Under the pieces are notes generated by a model. That model ran no database searches, was not told the DNA's origin, and saw nothing but the letters and a program-made list of their open reading frames with translations. This document shows positions 3,171-57,479 of a stretch of 64,000 nt of DNA, one piece after another (position 1 is the stretch's first letter; the number at the start of each line of letters is the position of its first letter). Source of the stretch: an uncultured Bacteroidaceae bacterium. GTDB taxonomy: Bacteria; Bacteroidota; Bacteroidia; Bacteroidales; Bacteroidaceae. A program made the translations under genes and the position numbers. The stretch covers positions 1-64,000 of the forward strand of contig CAJODY010000009.1 in assembly GCA_905233285.1 (NCBI GenBank), given 5' to 3'.

Positions 3171-3268
3171 AGTTTACGGTTTACGGTTTACGGCTTACAG
3201 CTTACAGCTTACGGGTTACAGCTTACTGGTTACTGGTTACAGTTTACGGGTTACGGGTTACGGGTTGA
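3171..3268. repeat. Heptad array, family A (13 consecutive NGNTTAC units, then GGGTTGA)
   Basis: AGTTTAC GGTTTAC GGTTTAC GGCTTAC AGCTTAC AGCTTAC GGGTTAC AGCTTAC TGGTTAC TGGTTAC AGTTTAC GGGTTAC GGGTTAC GGGTTGA. Confidence 0.95.
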
Positions 3269-4635: not shown

Positions 4636-7158
4636 TCAGAATTCTACTATTGTTATTCCGGCGCCACCGAGCTGTATGTGCTCGTCGTGAAAATCGACTA
4701 CAGACGGTACAGTGGCAAGGTAGTCGCGGATGAGGGTTTTCAGGATGCCGTTACCTGTACCGTGAAGTATGCGGACACTGGCTACATTGGCAACTATGGC
4801 ATCGTCGATATAAGATGTAATGGTCTGCAGAGCTTCATCGCCACGCATACCACGCACATCGATATCCTGTGAGAAGCGGAGAGTCTTGTTACGTATCTCA
4901 TCGCGTGTCTGTGCAGAGATGAACGTTGCGGCACGCGGTTTCTCCTTCGGAGCCTTTGCCGGTTCAAGTCGGTCGAGAGCAACGTTTGTAACTACCGAAC
5001 CGAATGCGATTTGTGCCTCCTTCGTATTTATCTTCTTTACCAGTCCGGCAGTAGCCGTGCCCTTGATACGTGCGTACATACCGACGGAGAGTGTGGATTC
5101 GAGGGCTGAGGGCTGATGGTTGAGGGCTGATGGTTGAGGGCTGATGTTTGAAGGCTTACTCCCCTCCCCTTTCTTTTTCTCCTTACGACGGCGGATTTTC
5201 TCCATCTGTCGTTGGATGCGTTCTTCCATTGCTGCCTCGTCAACAGCCAGCAGTTCGGTCTTGAAATCGTTATGTTCCTTACGGATGGAGCGTGTACGTT
5301 CCTTTTCTGCTTGTGCTTCCTTTATCTCACGGATGGTCTGCTCGATACGTGCATTGGCACGTTGCAGGAGTTCTTCGGCTTCAAGTTTTGCCTTGGCTAT
5401 AATCTCCTTCTTTTGTTGACGTAGTGTAGTAACCTCCTGTTCGTAGCGCTCGATGGTCTGATCCATCTGCTTCTCCTGCGAGTGGATGACCTGCCGTTTC
5501 TGTTCCCAGTAGCGTTTATCGCGCACTATGTCCTGCAGATACTTATCCGAATTGATATAATCCTTTCCGACTATTTCGGAGGCATCGGCTATGACATCCT
5601 CGGGCAGTCCTATCTTACGAGCAATCTCGACGGCAAACGAACTGCCCGGATTACCTATCTGGAGCTGGAAGAGCGGTTGCATCTGCTGGCGGTCGTAAAG
5701 CATGGCACCGTTCACGATACCGTCGGTATCCTGAGCCAGGAGTTTGAGATTCTGGTAATGAGTAGTTATGACACCAAACGCCTTGTTTCGGTTGAACCGT
5801 TTCAGTACGGCCTCAGCTATGGCACCACCAATCTGGGGTTCGGTACCACCTCCGAACTCGTCGATGAGTATGAGCGTAGCCTCGTCGGCATAACGCATCA
5901 TGTGCTTCATATTATATAAATGTGACGAGTAGGTAGAGAGGTCGTCCTCAATGGACTGTTCGTCGCCTATGTCGATGAATATATTGCTGAACACCCCTGC
6001 CACACTGCTTTTCGCCATCGGTACTGGCATACCGCACTGGAGCATGTACTGAAGGAGTCCGACCGTCTTCAGGCATACCGACTTTCCTCCGGCGTTAGGT
6101 CCTGAGATGAGCAGGATGCGGTTCTGCTGCGAAAGCAGTATGTCGAGCGGTACTACCTTCTTTCCTTCGGAATGGAGTTTCATCTGTAGGAGCGGATGAA
6201 CAGCCATACTCCAATCGATATGATGCTTGTCGGAGATGGTTGGTTCGGTACTGCCGGTACGAATGGCGAAGCGAGCCTTAGCCATTATGAAGTCTATGTC
6301 GGCAAGGAACTCATAACTGTAAAGGATGTCGTCCACCTCGGGACGGATAGTATCGGTGAACTCCAGAAGGATGCGCTTTATCTCATGGCGCTCGTCAGCC
6401 TCCAGTTCACGTATGCGGTTGTTCGCCTCTACCACCTCTGCCGGTTCGATATAAACCGTGCGTCCGGTATCCGACTCATCATGTACGATGCCACGTATCT
6501 TCCGTTTCATGGCAGGAGCCACAGGGATGACCAGACGTCCGTCGCGCAACGTGGGGGCTATGTCCTTATCGACCAGTCCTTCGTTCTTGGCGGATTTCAT
6601 TATGCCGGAAAGGATGCGTGATATGCTGCCTGCCGTTTGTGCCAGTTCCTTACGTATTGCAGCCAAAGCAGGTGATGCGGAGTCTTTCACGTTGCCAAAC
6701 TTATCCAGAATCTGGTCGATGCGTTTTACCAACTGCGGATAGGTCACTACCCCATCGCTCAGAGCATGGAGCGCAGGATATTTATATAATGTATCCTCGG
6801 CTTCGACAGCTTCCTCACCGTTTTCGTTCTTCTTTAGGAAAGCTACGATAAGTACGATGGTAGAGAGCGAACGCTGGAGGTCAAACAATTCGGGTACGTC
6901 GAGAAACGTATTCTCGATGCGGATATGTCTCAGAGCGCTGCGCACATCGAAGAAATTCTGGCTCGGGAAGTCATCTTCCTGCAGGATGCGCACGAATTCC
7001 ATTGTCTGACGCACGGCAGAACGTATCTGATGCACGTCGGTAAGGAACTCCATCTGCCCTACCCGCTCCCTTCCGAGTGTGCACAGACAGGACTGCGACA
7101 AGAGGTCGCGCACCTTGTCGAACGATATCTTTTGCTCGAAATTCTTTGGGTAAATCAT
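4636..7158 (-). CDS. mutS2: Endonuclease MutS2 (Smr domain)
   Basis: Walker A SGPNAGGKSV, C-terminal Smr DVRGMRGDEAL...ILHGTGNGILKTLIRDYL. ORF opens at 7176; the likely start is MIYPKNFEQKISF. Confidence 0.93.
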   Translation of the reverse strand: MIYPKNFEQKISFDKVRDLLSQSCLCTLGRERVGQMEFLTDVHQIRSAVRQTMEFVRILQEDDFPSQNFFDVRSALRHIRIENTFLDVPELFDLQRSLSTIVLIVAFLKKNENGEEAVEAEDTLYKYPALHALSDGVVTYPQLVKRIDQILDKFGNVKDSASPALAAIRKELAQTAGSISRILSGIMKSAKNEGLVDKDIAPTLRDGRLVIPVAPAMKRKIRGIVHDESDTGRTVYIEPAEVVEANNRIRELEADERHEIKRILLEFTDTIRPEVDDILYSYEFLADIDFIMAKARFAIRTGSTEPTISDKHHIDWSMAVHPLLQMKLHSEGKKVVPLDILLSQQNRILLISGPNAGGKSVCLKTVGLLQYMLQCGMPVPMAKSSVAGVFSNIFIDIGDEQSIEDDLSTYSSHLYNMKHMMRYADEATLILIDEFGGGTEPQIGGAIAEAVLKRFNRNKAFGVITTHYQNLKLLAQDTDGIVNGAMLYDRQQMQPLFQLQIGNPGSSFAVEIARKIGLPEDVIADASEIVGKDYINSDKYLQDIVRDKRYWEQKRQVIHSQEKQMDQTIERYEQEVTTLRQQKKEIIAKAKLEAEELLQRANARIEQTIREIKEAQAEKERTRSIRKEHNDFKTELLAVDEAAMEERIQRQMEKIRRRKEKKKGEGSKPSNISPQPSALNHQPSALESTLSVGMYARIKGTATAGLVKKINTKEAQIAFGSVVTNVALDRLEPAKAPKEKPRAATFISAQTRDEIRNKTLRFSQDIDVRGMRGDEALQTITSYIDDAIVANVASVRILHGTGNGILKTLIRDYLATVPSVVDFHDEHIQLGGAGITIVEF
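5101..5156. repeat. Heptad array, family B, inside mutS2 (8 units)
   Basis: GAGGGCT GAGGGCT GATGGTT GAGGGCT GATGGTT GAGGGCT GATGTTT GAAGGCT. Encodes the linker SKPSNISPQPSALNHQPSALES. Confidence 0.9.
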
Positions 7159-8637: not shown

Positions 8638-8707
8638 AGTTTACAGTTTACGGCTTACGGCTTACAGCTTACTGGTTACCGTTTACGGTTTACAGTTTAC
8701 GGTTGAA
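8638..8707. repeat. Heptad array, family A (9 units of NGNTTAC, then GGTTGAA)
   Basis: AGTTTAC AGTTTAC GGCTTAC GGCTTAC AGCTTAC TGGTTAC CGTTTAC GGTTTAC AGTTTAC GGTTGAA. Confidence 0.95.
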
Positions 8708-16799: not shown

Positions 16800-16820
16800 A
16801 TGTTTCATGCGGGCGCAATG

Positions 16821-16864
16821 AACGTTTCAGTTCAGCGCTTCAAACGTTTCAGTTCAGCGCTTCT
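16821..16864. repeat. 22-bp tandem duplication
   Basis: AACGTTTCAGTTCAGCGCTTCA / AACGTTTCAGTTCAGCGCTTCT. Confidence 0.9.
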
Positions 16865-26666: not shown

Positions 26667-26709
26667 ATGTTGTTCTATATTTAACATCTTACATCATATT
26701 GTAGTCGTC

Positions 26710-26760
26710 ATACTCTTACATCAGCCATCTTACATCAGCCATCATACATCATACATCCAT
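26710..26760. repeat. Heptad array, family B
   Basis: Minus-strand reading GATGGAT GTATGAT GTATGAT GGCTGAT GTAAGAT GGCTGAT GTAAGAG, between fimbrillin stop and giant-gene start. Confidence 0.85.
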
Positions 26761-30998: not shown

Positions 30999-31056
30999 TA
31001 CATCATACATCTTCTCTCCCCTACATCATACATCAGCCCTCATACATCATACATCC
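30999..31056. repeat. Heptad array, family B
   Basis: Minus-strand reading GATGTAT GATGTAT GAGGGCT GATGTAT GATGTAG ..., upstream of dinD. Confidence 0.8.
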
Positions 31057-31117
31057 TCCTTCTTCCCTCTTCCTTCCCCTACTCTTACTTCTGACATCTG
31101 ACATCTGACATCTTCCT

Positions 31118-34626: not shown

Positions 34627-35004
34627 ACCTGTCATGTTGCCACACGCGAAAGAGCCTGCACCTTGCAGGCACCCCTTGTAGAATGTGGTTATGTAATGTA
34701 CTTTCTTAGGTGAAATCATTATAGTTAATACTATCCTGACGTTCGAATTCGACGCAAAGATACAACTTTCTGCGCATATACGTACATATTTTACTATAAA
34801 AGTGCCGTTTTTAACATTTCCGACTCCTTTCTTACCAACTTTATTCCCTTTTAATGTCTTCCATAGGGTGCCACAAATCGACATATCGACATGACGACAT
34901 CTCGAAAAAATGGCGCCCTAAAATAAATTTTCTCTCCCGCAGATTTTCTTTCTCACGCGCCTGCAGCAAGAAAAAATCGCGAGGGGATTTTTAATAATCG
35001 CGTC

Positions 35005-51412: not shown

Positions 51413-53062
51413 TTATTTTTTATGTTTCAGTTTTTCCAGTTTCTGCAACGGTACTTGCCGGCGTTCTGTCTTCTTCAGAATATTCTTATCGTCTTTCGAA
51501 CGCCACTGGAATATATCATAACGGTCGGTAGGACGAATATAATCAAACCAAGCAAAACGGCTTAGGTAACGTTTGTCTGTAGGTATCATCAGGTCGGGAT
51601 AAACCGTGCCGGTAGCAGCCGGCATCCATATTTTCTTCACTTTTTTGTTTTCCATGTAGATTATAAGCTCTGTGCTCTCCGAATAGTTCATACCTATACG
51701 CGTGCCATCATCTTCGTTCATGAAATAATCAACATAGACGTTACCTTTAGCTACATTATGGTCTATCTGTCCATCGACAAAATAGCAGAACATTTCTTTG
51801 GATTCTACTTGATTATAGGAGACTGAATCGACCTGCTCGATGGTGGTGGCCTGGTCGATTACATGTATCCAGTCGATGGTGCTGTCATTATTGTAGATGC
51901 GGATTTCTTCACCGAATAGTTGTTGCTCCTCGTTCCACAATATGGGTTGTCCGTACATGTAAGTACAAGAGTCCAACTCGTGGGTAACCATCGAGTCGCA
52001 CACTCCTTGTACATCGTTGCGGAAGAAACGTACATGATGATATGCGTGCATATCACGATATACGGAGTCGGTGTTCATGTTGTAGGTAAACATCTTCAGC
52101 GTATCACCATGAAGGAAAAGTGTGTCAGGTGGTTGCGAATACTCATATGCCACAGCACTGTCTGTCGCTACAGCAGTGCCGGTACTATCGTCATAAGAAC
52201 AGTAGTTGCCTGTTATCATGCAGTCGTTCTCCTCATCGGTAATTATTGCATTACCGAAAACTTCGCTAAATCCTGTACGCTTGTCGGTATGAATACTGTC
52301 ACCTTCTACCTTGCGCATATCTTTGATTATATACGAACGATTGAGCAAGAATGCTTCACCCGTCTTCGTAGCATAATCTCCTTTTATACCATATATGAAT
52401 GTGCCGTCATCGGTAATGATGTTCGAGGGTGTAACAATGCGGGCAATTTCTGTATCAGTGTAGTAATAAAGCGTATCGGTTACGAGCTTAAACTGCGGAT
52501 TGGTCAGCACTACGTTATCAGTGAAGAATGCTTCGTGGGTTGTGGTGGTAAGTTGCCCCCAGTCGCTCACTAGCACATTGTCGCCATCGTAGAGGGTACC
52601 TCCATACAGGTACATGCCTACACTATAAACACGGTCGTAGTCCAGATTCTCACTTTCGAGACGTGTCTTCTTATCGATGAGCACACAATTACCACGTGCA
52701 CGGGCTTTCATCTCGTACCCGTCGTAAAGGAGTGTGTCGCTGGTAAGTGTGACGGTGTCACCCTGTACCATCTTCACATGGCCGAAAGCGTCAAATGAAT
52801 TTTCTTCCTTATAGAAACGGGCACTGTCGCAATCGAGAAAAACGCCATCGTGGTATAAGCGTACGTGTCCAATCAGAATGTCGGCACGAGGGTCTTGCCA
52901 GTTCTTGTAGAGGATGTCGGAATGAATGAGGTGAATCTGCTCGTCCGATTTCTTCCCTTCCTTATTGGCAGGAGCTATCGAAGCAAATAACATGCCGAAA
53001 ACAAATAGGCACATTATACCCACTAATAAACGGGAGGATATGTTCGAACCGTTTTTCTTCAT
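51413..53062 (-). CDS. OstA/LptA-like LPS transport protein
   Basis: IGHVRLYHDGVFLDCDSARFYKEENSFDAFGHVKMVQGDTVTLTSDTLLYDG (OstA-like repeats). Confidence 0.85.
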   Translation of the reverse strand: MKKNGSNISSRLLVGIMCLFVFGMLFASIAPANKEGKKSDEQIHLIHSDILYKNWQDPRADILIGHVRLYHDGVFLDCDSARFYKEENSFDAFGHVKMVQGDTVTLTSDTLLYDGYEMKARARGNCVLIDKKTRLESENLDYDRVYSVGMYLYGGTLYDGDNVLVSDWGQLTTTTHEAFFTDNVVLTNPQFKLVTDTLYYYTDTEIARIVTPSNIITDDGTFIYGIKGDYATKTGEAFLLNRSYIIKDMRKVEGDSIHTDKRTGFSEVFGNAIITDEENDCMITGNYCSYDDSTGTAVATDSAVAYEYSQPPDTLFLHGDTLKMFTYNMNTDSVYRDMHAYHHVRFFRNDVQGVCDSMVTHELDSCTYMYGQPILWNEEQQLFGEEIRIYNNDSTIDWIHVIDQATTIEQVDSVSYNQVESKEMFCYFVDGQIDHNVAKGNVYVDYFMNEDDGTRIGMNYSESTELIIYMENKKVKKIWMPAATGTVYPDLMIPTDKRYLSRFAWFDYIRPTDRYDIFQWRSKDDKNILKKTERRQVPLQKLEKLKHKK

Positions 53063-53095
53063 ACTTCACACCTCATACATCTTACCTCAGACCTC
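53061..53095. repeat. Heptad array, family B, bridging the SurA stop and OstA start
   Basis: Minus-strand reading GAGGTCT GAGGTAA GATGTAT GAGGTGT GAAGTAT(G). Confidence 0.85.
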
Positions 53096-54464
53096 ATTTT
53101 ATCCACCCTGGATACTGGAATTCGCAGTTACTCCACTCTTCGTTGATGTGTATATAGGTTGTCTGCTGCTTCTCGCGTATCCAGTTGGTAATCTTCTCTA
53201 TGCTCTGCTTCTCGACAACAACATCCTGCATAGCCTGGTAGTCGTCGGCCATATTGGCACGGTGACCATTGATTTTATTCTTCAATTTAACTATGGCAAC
53301 AACTTCCTTTCCTTTGTTGTTGACCATGATAAAAGGCTTTGATATCTCACCTATATTCATGGTACTCACAACTTTTGCCACGTCGGCAGGTAAATCTTTT
53401 ATTTCAAACTTTGACGAGTTGTCTTCTGCGTTGAACATATTACCGTAGTTGTTGCGTGTCTCTTTGTCTTGCGATACATACTGAGTGCATTCGTCGAAAG
53501 TATAAAGACCACGACGGATTTCGTCGGAAATAGAGTCCAAGTCGTTAATTGCCTGAGTGAAAGCATCGTTAGACACACGCGGTTTGCGCAGAATATGGCG
53601 TACGTTTATCTGATCACCACGTTTTTCAATAAGCTGTATGATATGAAAACCGTATTCCGTTTCTACTATCTTCGACACTGCTTTAGGGTCGTTCAGACTG
53701 AACGCGACATTTGCAAATTCGGGAACGAAACTACCTCGACCAGCAAATCCACACTCACCACCCTGACGGGCTGTACCTGTATCTTCGGAATACATAACTG
53801 CTAGAGTGGAGAACTGTGAACGTCCGGAGTTGACACGTTCAGTATAGTCGCGCAATTCCGCCTTCACACGTTCTATCTCTTCCGGTTCTATCACTGGATT
53901 ACGTACAATAATCTGACACTCCACCTTGGTAGGAATAAATGGCAGACTGTCTTCGGGAAGGTCTTTGAAGTAGCGACGCACCTGAGCCGGTGTTACCTTC
54001 ACATCCTTCACCAAGGAGGCACGTACTTCACCCGTCAGCATGTCGTCTCGTACCATGTCGTATAGCTGTTCACGAATCTGCGAGGTTGTCTTTCCGAAGT
54101 ATTCTTCCATCTTCTCTTTTCCGTTCAGCTGCTGGATGTAGTAGTTTATACGCTGATCTACACGCTGAAACACCTCGCTGTCGGACACTTGAACTGAGTC
54201 GATGGCAGCCTGATGAAGGAACAGTTTCTGAATTGCAAGGTTCTCTGGAATGATGCAGTATGGGTCGCCATCCAATCGCTGACCTTGAGAGAGAGCCTCG
54301 AGACGGGCATTCTCTACGTCAGACCTCAAGATGGCTTCGTCACCGACTATCCATACCACTTCGTCAACTACGTTCGGGGCACTCTGGGCATGAACCATTG
54401 AGAATGGACCACCCAAAAGCACGACAGACAGAAGTATTCTGTATATTTTTTTCATCGGAATCAA
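53094..54464 (-). CDS. SurA-like peptidylprolyl isomerase
   Basis: SurA_N DEVVWIVGDEAILRSDVEN; parvulin GECGFAGRGSFVPEFANVAFSLNDPKAVSKIVETEYGFHIIQLIEKRGD. Confidence 0.9.
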   Translation of the reverse strand: MIPMKKIYRILLSVVLLGGPFSMVHAQSAPNVVDEVVWIVGDEAILRSDVENARLEALSQGQRLDGDPYCIIPENLAIQKLFLHQAAIDSVQVSDSEVFQRVDQRINYYIQQLNGKEKMEEYFGKTTSQIREQLYDMVRDDMLTGEVRASLVKDVKVTPAQVRRYFKDLPEDSLPFIPTKVECQIIVRNPVIEPEEIERVKAELRDYTERVNSGRSQFSTLAVMYSEDTGTARQGGECGFAGRGSFVPEFANVAFSLNDPKAVSKIVETEYGFHIIQLIEKRGDQINVRHILRKPRVSNDAFTQAINDLDSISDEIRRGLYTFDECTQYVSQDKETRNNYGNMFNAEDNSSKFEIKDLPADVAKVVSTMNIGEISKPFIMVNNKGKEVVAIVKLKNKINGHRANMADDYQAMQDVVVEKQSIEKITNWIREKQQTTYIHINEEWSNCEFQYPGWIK

Positions 54465-55900: not shown

Positions 55901-56000
55901 ATAATAGTAGTTCTAAAGACTGCATCCACATTAGTGCGGACGCAGTCAGAGAGATGGTTTATGTCTAAACATTTTTCAATGTTCAATGTTCTATTCCTTA

Positions 56001-57479
56001 TTACTGAGGACGGCTGTAGTTCGGTGCCTCACTGGTAATTATAACCTCGTGCGGGTGACTTTCAAGCACACCTGCATTAGTGATGCGGGTAAACTTGGCA
56101 TTGTGCAGACTCTGAATGTCTTTAGCACCGCAGTAACCCATACCCGAACGGAGACCTCCAACGAGCTGGTAAATTACTTCCTGAACGGTTCCCTTGTAAG
56201 GAACACGACCTGCAATACCTTCCGGCACGAGTTTCTTTGTCTCCTCTACTCCGCCCTGGAAATAGCGGTCTTTCGAACCGTTTTCCATAGCTTCGAGCGA
56301 ACCCATGCCACGATAGCTCTTGAACTTACGTCCATTGTAAAGGATAGTCTCACCCGGAGCCTCATCGGTTCCTGCTACGAGCGAACCAATCATAACACTG
56401 TATCCTCCGGCTGCTATTGCCTTCACCACATCACCGGAATAACGCAGACCTCCGTCGGCAATCAAAGGTACTCCGGTACCCTCCAAAGCCATTGCCACAT
56501 CATATACAGCACTGAGCTGCGGAACTCCTACACCGGCTACTACACGAGTCGTACAGATAGAACCCGGACCGATACCGACCTTTACTGCATCTGCTCCAGC
56601 CTCAACGAGAGCCTTGGCGGCATCTCCGGTAGCTATGTTGCCGACAACGATGTCAACCTCTGGGAAGTTCTGCTTTGCTTCGCGAACCTTCTCAATCACA
56701 CCTTTCGAATGACCATGTGCCGTATCGATTACTATTGCATCGACTCCTGCCTTCACCAGTGCTTCCATGCGCTGGAACGTGTCGGCTGTAACTCCAACAC
56801 CTGCCGCAACACGCAGACGACCCTTGCCGTCCTTGCATGCCATAGGCTTGTCGGCAGCCTTAGTGATGTCCTTATATGTGATGAGACCTATCAGACGGTT
56901 ATCGTCATCAACGACTGGGAGTTTCTCTATTTTATGTTCGAGCAGAATCTTCGAAGCACTTGCCAAGTCTGCCTGCTGATGAGTAACTACAAGGTTATCC
57001 TTCGTCATTACATCATCAATCTTACGTTTCATGTCCGTCTGGAAACGAAGGTCACGGTTCGTTACGATTCCGACCAGCTTGTTATCTTTGTCAACCACTG
57101 GAATACCACCGATATGATACTCTGCCATTATAGCAAGAGCATTCTCTACCGTCTTGCCACGCATGATAGTCACAGGGTCGTATATCATACCGTTTTCAGC
57201 ACGCTTCACAATTGCTACCTGACGAGCCTGTTCCTCAATCGACATATTCTTGTGAATCACACCAATACCACCCTCACGTGCTATGGCAATAGCCATAGGA
57301 GCCTCAGTAACAGTGTCCATAGCCGCCGTAACGAACGGTATGCGCAGTTCAATGTTTCTAGAAAACTTAGTAGTGAGGGAAACTTCACGCGGAAGGACTT
57401 CTGAATAACCTGGTACGAGGAGCACATCATCGTACGTCAAGCCTTCCATAATGACTTTATCTGCAATAAATGATGACAT
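56001..57479 (-). CDS. guaB: IMP dehydrogenase
   Basis: [22 protein letters not shown]...CBS pair...[20 protein letters not shown]. Confidence 0.98.

Follow-up and report, generated by a model that had tools for sequence, protein, structure and literature searches.

A heptanucleotide array fills the surA-ostA/lptA junction of a Bacteroidaceae genome and is probably one of many tolerated repeats in weakly constrained DNA

The 64-kb stretch of gut Bacteroidales DNA analysed here (hereafter the window) carries on its minus strand two genes of outer-membrane assembly, one for a SurA-like peptidyl-prolyl isomerase followed by an OstA/LptA-like gene, and the domain assignments of both hold (Rotamase/SurA-like and OstA_2/LptD_N). 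An imperfect heptad array of 5.6 units occupies the entire spacer between them (minus strand, 53057-53096). The sense-strand sequence of the junction found in the window is AAAATGAGGTCTGAGGTAAGATGTATGAGGTGTGAAGTATG, and its features are as follows.

53094..54464, minus strand: upstream gene, for a SurA-like peptidyl-prolyl isomerase with Rotamase domains
53094..53096, minus strand: TGA stop of the SurA-like gene, forming the opening three bases of the first heptad
53057..53096, minus strand: imperfect heptads occupying the surA-ostA/lptA junction; on the sense strand the units read TGAGGTC TGAGGTA AGATGTA TGAGGTG TGAAGTA TG...
53060..53062, minus strand: ATG at which the OstA/LptA-like gene starts, overlapped by the last heptad
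51413..53062, minus strand: OstA_2/LptD_N (LptA-like) gene, downstream

Tandem Repeats Finder called the junction at 53059-53097 with period 7, 5.6 copies and 71% matches, and a lag-7 scan returned the segment 53057-53096 with a score of 17. The first-pass annotation, made from the letters of the window, had described this array as fused to both neighbouring genes, and we found that it is indeed joined at both ends, with the TGA inside the first unit and the ATG overlapped by the last. The formula it gave for the units, GAKGKHT, describes only part of the array, whose units are TGAGGTC, TGAGGTA, AGATGTA, TGAGGTG and TGAAGTA. Runs of GGG are absent from the array, the predicted RNA fold of the junction is ordinary (z -0.37), and an Rfam search of the junction gave no match.

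The junction array has company. At a score of at least 13, the window holds 11 lag-7 segments against 0 expected from 20 first-order Markov simulations (counts per 64 kb), while lags 4-6 and 8-11 yield just 0-3 segments at the same score. The other arrays considered here are these.

26708..26757, minus strand: array whose heptads share the word type of the junction (GATGTAT/GATGGCT), following the stop of a fimbrillin-like gene
30999..31076, minus strand: heptad array (GATGTAT/GAGGGCT), followed by 31083-31113 (GATGTCA)
5101..5156, minus strand: heptad array within the mutS2 coding sequence, in the linker that joins MutS and Smr domains, its stop-free strand being the sense strand
3172..3266, minus strand: GTAAVCN heptad array (sense) that fills another co-directional junction and overlaps the upstream stop
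8638..8704, no strand assigned: array of GTAAVCN/GTTTACN heptads between convergent genes, 2 nt past the stop of the left gene
55970..56005, minus strand: short remnant of heptads (CATTGAA), matched in the sister species by a 73-bp array of ATTGACA

The first three had been listed with the junction array as members of one related family. The array at 5101-5156 lies inside mutS2 and not in a spacer at all, that at 26708-26757 contacts the stop of the fimbrillin-like gene and not the next start, and that at 30999-31076 contacts neither neighbouring stop nor start. Among these four arrays, fusion at both ends is found at the surA-ostA/lptA site alone; elsewhere in the genome, many other co-directional junction arrays likewise fill the space from stop to start. 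The window also contains two overlapping calls of a 22-bp tandem repeat (AACGTTTCAGTTCAGCGCTTCA) at 16813-16863, just beyond the 3′ end of a gene of 3254 aa.

The excess of period 7 extends to the genome. In 852 kb we found 60 arrays at lag 7, 41 noncoding and 19 coding, yet noncoding DNA makes up only 12% of this sequence. Noncoding arrays at lags 4-6 and 10-13 number 0-4, against the 41 at lag 7. When all arrays are counted, lags 4-6, 10, 11 and 13 give 1-8 each and lag 8 gives 23, and the 26 and 19 arrays at lags 9 and 12 are mainly coding, in keeping with periods divisible by three. Period 7 thus exceeds both chance and the neighbouring periods in arrays that are mainly intergenic, as in heptanucleotide simple sequence repeats (SSRs). 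Across 1.64 Mb there are 128 heptad arrays. Arrays of this kind occur between co-directional, convergent and divergent genes as well as within genes, in both orientations. Period 8 forms a separate class, represented in the window at 34873-34905 and by 38 arrays in 1.64 Mb; many of its units follow the pattern CGACATAT / GTTATTACG, others are TTAATAGC or GTTACAGC, and they bear scant likeness to the heptad words. The junction array is short and imperfect and the assembly is a draft of 110 contigs, as chance low-complexity sequence or an assembly artefact might have it, but this explanation is scarcely credible given a simulated expectation of 0, the lag-7 excess throughout the genome and the presence of a similar array in an independently assembled sister species.

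In that sister (L003, 93% SurA identity), the junction array is exactly one unit longer, with an anchor-to-anchor length of 51 nt versus 44 nt here, a difference of 7 nt. Two further relatives, L004 and L005 (91% and 89% SurA identity), have the junction TAATTTGAAG, in which the array is absent and the stop TAA and the start TTG are separated by 1 nt (TAA-T-TTG). The window's spacer exceeds theirs by 30 nt and the extra DNA consists of heptads, so that the earlier suggestion of a junction built from the repeat is literally correct. The SurA tree groups the window with L003 (support 100/96) and L004 with L005 (99/92). Heptads of other words stand at the same junction in more distant relatives: TTGAAGA (L006), GATGTAA (L011), GGTTATA/AGAGGTA (L018) and AGTTTAG (L020 and L133). 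When array presence is mapped on the tree, just two changes are forced. The simple reading is that the array was gained in the common ancestor of the window and L003, with loss in L004/L005 as the alternative; from the differing words we infer that junction arrays may have had more than two origins.

These comparisons bear on the idea that the array serves translational coupling, as the first-pass annotation had proposed. Under this idea the array would supply stops in three frames together with an ATGA start/stop chain, and ribosomes finishing surA would reinitiate toward the ostA/lptA-like start. Stops do occur in all three frames of the junction array. The window contains a 12-codon mini-ORF that overlaps the surA stop at its start and the ostA/lptA start at its end, each time through ATGA, and the sister has a three-step GTGA/ATGA chain across the junction. 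A mini-ORF chain also arises, however, in about 49% of letter-shuffled spacers and in 43-53% of unit orders, and is present in only 3 of 39 array junctions of the genome (0 of 214 junctions without arrays). We accordingly rejected the relay, its frequency being the chance expectation in this composition. Several of the other words at this junction are devoid of ATG, close relatives keep the genes 1 nt apart with no heptads, and the spacing across relatives ranges from 1 nt to about 110 nt in unrelated sequence, so stop/start overlaps do not persist as they would in a coupling element. A coupling role, judged from sequence, is improbable.

We also considered whether the stops are themselves needed. 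The claim that nearly every unit carries a stop generalises well, since 67 of 73 array words have TAA, TGA or TAG on at least one strand, compared with 57% of noncoding 7-mers. Co-directional junction arrays contain 10.95 stops per 100 bp on the sense strand versus 4.90 on the antisense strand, and control spacers 5.37 and 5.09 on the two strands. In arrays at most 5 nt from the upstream stop, sense stops stand at 12.5 versus 5.4 per 100 bp (words 30 versus 9), whereas arrays farther away show 8.6 versus 8.8 (words 13 versus 15). A larger set from this genome, which overlaps the first, again gave a sense excess near the stop (228 versus 114 stops) and a weak one far from it (102 versus 73 stops, 13 versus 8 arrays). 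The bias thus belongs mainly to arrays that include or touch the upstream stop, which led us to reject a functional need for stops; repeats growing out of the stop-codon region fit better. We likewise rejected a general rule of one stop on one strand only, which this genome hinted at and its relatives do not keep.

Comparison with the sister genome, made at about 85% identity, points to turnover. A heptad array stands at the matched sister site for 12 of 14 own arrays, and in the reverse direction only 14 of 34 sister arrays are matched by one here. At two sites the position and the period are kept and the word has changed, GTTTACC here versus CCATTGA in the sister, and further swaps pair AATGCAN with CCATTGA and AGTTGAA with AATTGAC. 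The length difference is an exact multiple of 7 at the surA-ostA junction and at one further site (91 nt, or 13 units); the remaining matched sites mostly show differences of other sizes, and clean 7-nt steps genome-wide were not seen against this sister at about 15% divergence.

Heptads also lie inside genes. The mutS2 linker that carries the array at 5101-5156 reads QPSALNHQPSALES. Its heptads are present here and in the sister (L253), where the array is longer, and are absent from three other genomes (G207, G203 and G212). In G207, the genome of L004, the linker is an unrelated Ala/Lys-rich sequence with no visible seed for the array. Both the mutS2 linker array and the surA-ostA array appeared in this species and its sister, and their words are related. 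In the sister, heptads encode part of the SurA signal peptide (L003 10049-10078) and part of a second signal-peptide-like N-terminus (G201 contig C1 12956-12986); at both places this genome has an unrelated stretch of about the same length.

The words themselves are drawn from a small set. The arrays of this genome fall into 51 word classes out of a possible 1172, and the 128 arrays form 238 identical-word pairs versus about 17 for composition-matched noncoding 7-mers. Words from other genera were found in this dictionary in 44% of cases versus 14% expected (five genomes, with the dominant GTAANCN family removed), in a sample partly chosen around GTAANCN hits; by genome, the sharing holds for G194 and G021 and not clearly for G143. 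Triples of GTAANCN number 178 in this genome and 97 in the sister and, among 201 genomes of the family, are absent from most, although four other genera include genomes with counts of 86, 65, 53 and 35. CATTGAN occurs 6 times here versus 36 in the sister. The reversed control for GTAANCN, CNAATGN, proved to be a rich heptad word itself, in G117 (102 hits), G068, G169 and G183. Local slippage accounts for growth and shrinkage and does not explain a dictionary common to several genera.

One explanation for such a dictionary is a process specific for certain words, whether it copies from locus to locus or is steered by a trans-acting enzyme, that would write heptads from a small shared set into weakly constrained Bacteroidaceae DNA; many loci would then share words, and a species could switch its dominant word while the sites stay. 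The surplus of identical pairs and of words shared with other genera, the patchy abundance of GTAANCN, the two syntenic exchanges of GTTTACC for CCATTGA and the related words at surA-ostA and mutS2 all argue in this direction. Words at matched sites, however, frequently differ by no more than about two substitutions, for which drift and homogenisation may suffice, an intrinsic preference for slip-prone words may apply, and the choice of genomes partly around GTAANCN hits tempers the cross-genus figures. We regard such writing as unlikely, if less so than coupling.

The junction array is probably one of many heptanucleotide repeats in this lineage that gain and lose units and diverge in sequence where DNA is under weak constraint, as in spacers, protein linkers and signal peptides. 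At the surA-ostA/lptA junction, heptads would have built up in the ancestor of this species and its sister, where relatives have TAA-T-TTG, likely through 7-nt slippage or misalignment in replication followed by turnover of units. They would have been tolerated there, the first unit retaining the in-frame surA stop and the last supplying the ATG of the ostA/lptA-like gene. We infer both slippage as the mechanism and the lack of a required function for the array; because the genes of a close relative nearly touch without a repeat, we read the array as tolerated growth and not as a needed switch. This repeat-growth reading draws on the presence of the array and its excess over chance, its absence in L004/L005, the one-unit difference from the sister, the other words at the junction and the turnover elsewhere. 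Against it stand the sister length differences that are not generally multiples of 7, the recurrence of words across unrelated loci and genera beyond composition, which slippage from a local seed does not explain, the mutS2 array with related words in the same two species opposite a seedless G207, and the weak sense-stop excess in far-from-stop arrays of the larger set.

Period-7 arrays are already known and their cause is unexplained. The arrays described here are of this known kind, seen as heptanucleotide repeats in cyanobacteria, Xanthomonas and Beggiatoaceae, with a different vocabulary. Those of cyanobacteria are termed STRRs. A literature search on Prevotella gave no relevant account of heptads. 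In this genome and its sister the arrays are dense and datable; orthologous sites free of arrays, word swaps at kept sites and arrays in coding linkers and signal peptides make the questions of why 7 and why certain words testable by strain comparison. These arrays also caution against inferring regulatory function from stop-rich heptads at gene junctions. What is new is the small, reused dictionary, common to other genera beyond composition, and the frequency with which sisters swap the word while keeping site and period.

Among long SSRs of 5-11 nt, as Mrazek et al. 2007 are summarised in PMC4679880 and PMC4692102, period 7 dominates and most arrays are intergenic, as in this genome; unlike the SSRs so summarised, the arrays here are imperfect, use dozens of words per genome that are common to other genera, and change words between sisters. 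For such repeats, a proposal cited in PMC4679880 links slippage to the roughly 7 nt that a polymerase contacts. MacGregor 2015 (PMC4679880) describes direct repeats of TAACTGA in Beggiatoaceae, Cyanobacteria and a small number of Bacteroidetes; these too are stop-containing heptamers, often directly 5′ of start codons; close relatives of two of the Bacteroidetes are without them, and in Bacteroidetes that have TAACTGA other heptamers lie nearby. In contrast, TAACTGA is missing from our 73 array words and from the junction units, and the arrays here show no consistent orientation to the downstream start. Xanthomonas and Nostoc carry G-rich heptads, GGGAATC and GGGGA(C/T)T (Rehm et al. 2015, PMC4692102), that are likewise intergenic and retained at the same gene pairs while their length and sequence vary among relatives. 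Those are words of G-quadruplex type, with a tract of at least three G in each unit, whereas the junction array has no GGG; one other array in this genome is AATTCCC/GGGAATT. The tandem heptanucleotides of Calothrix, as cited in PMC4692102, resemble ours, as described, in that a single cyanobacterial genome holds several different kinds.
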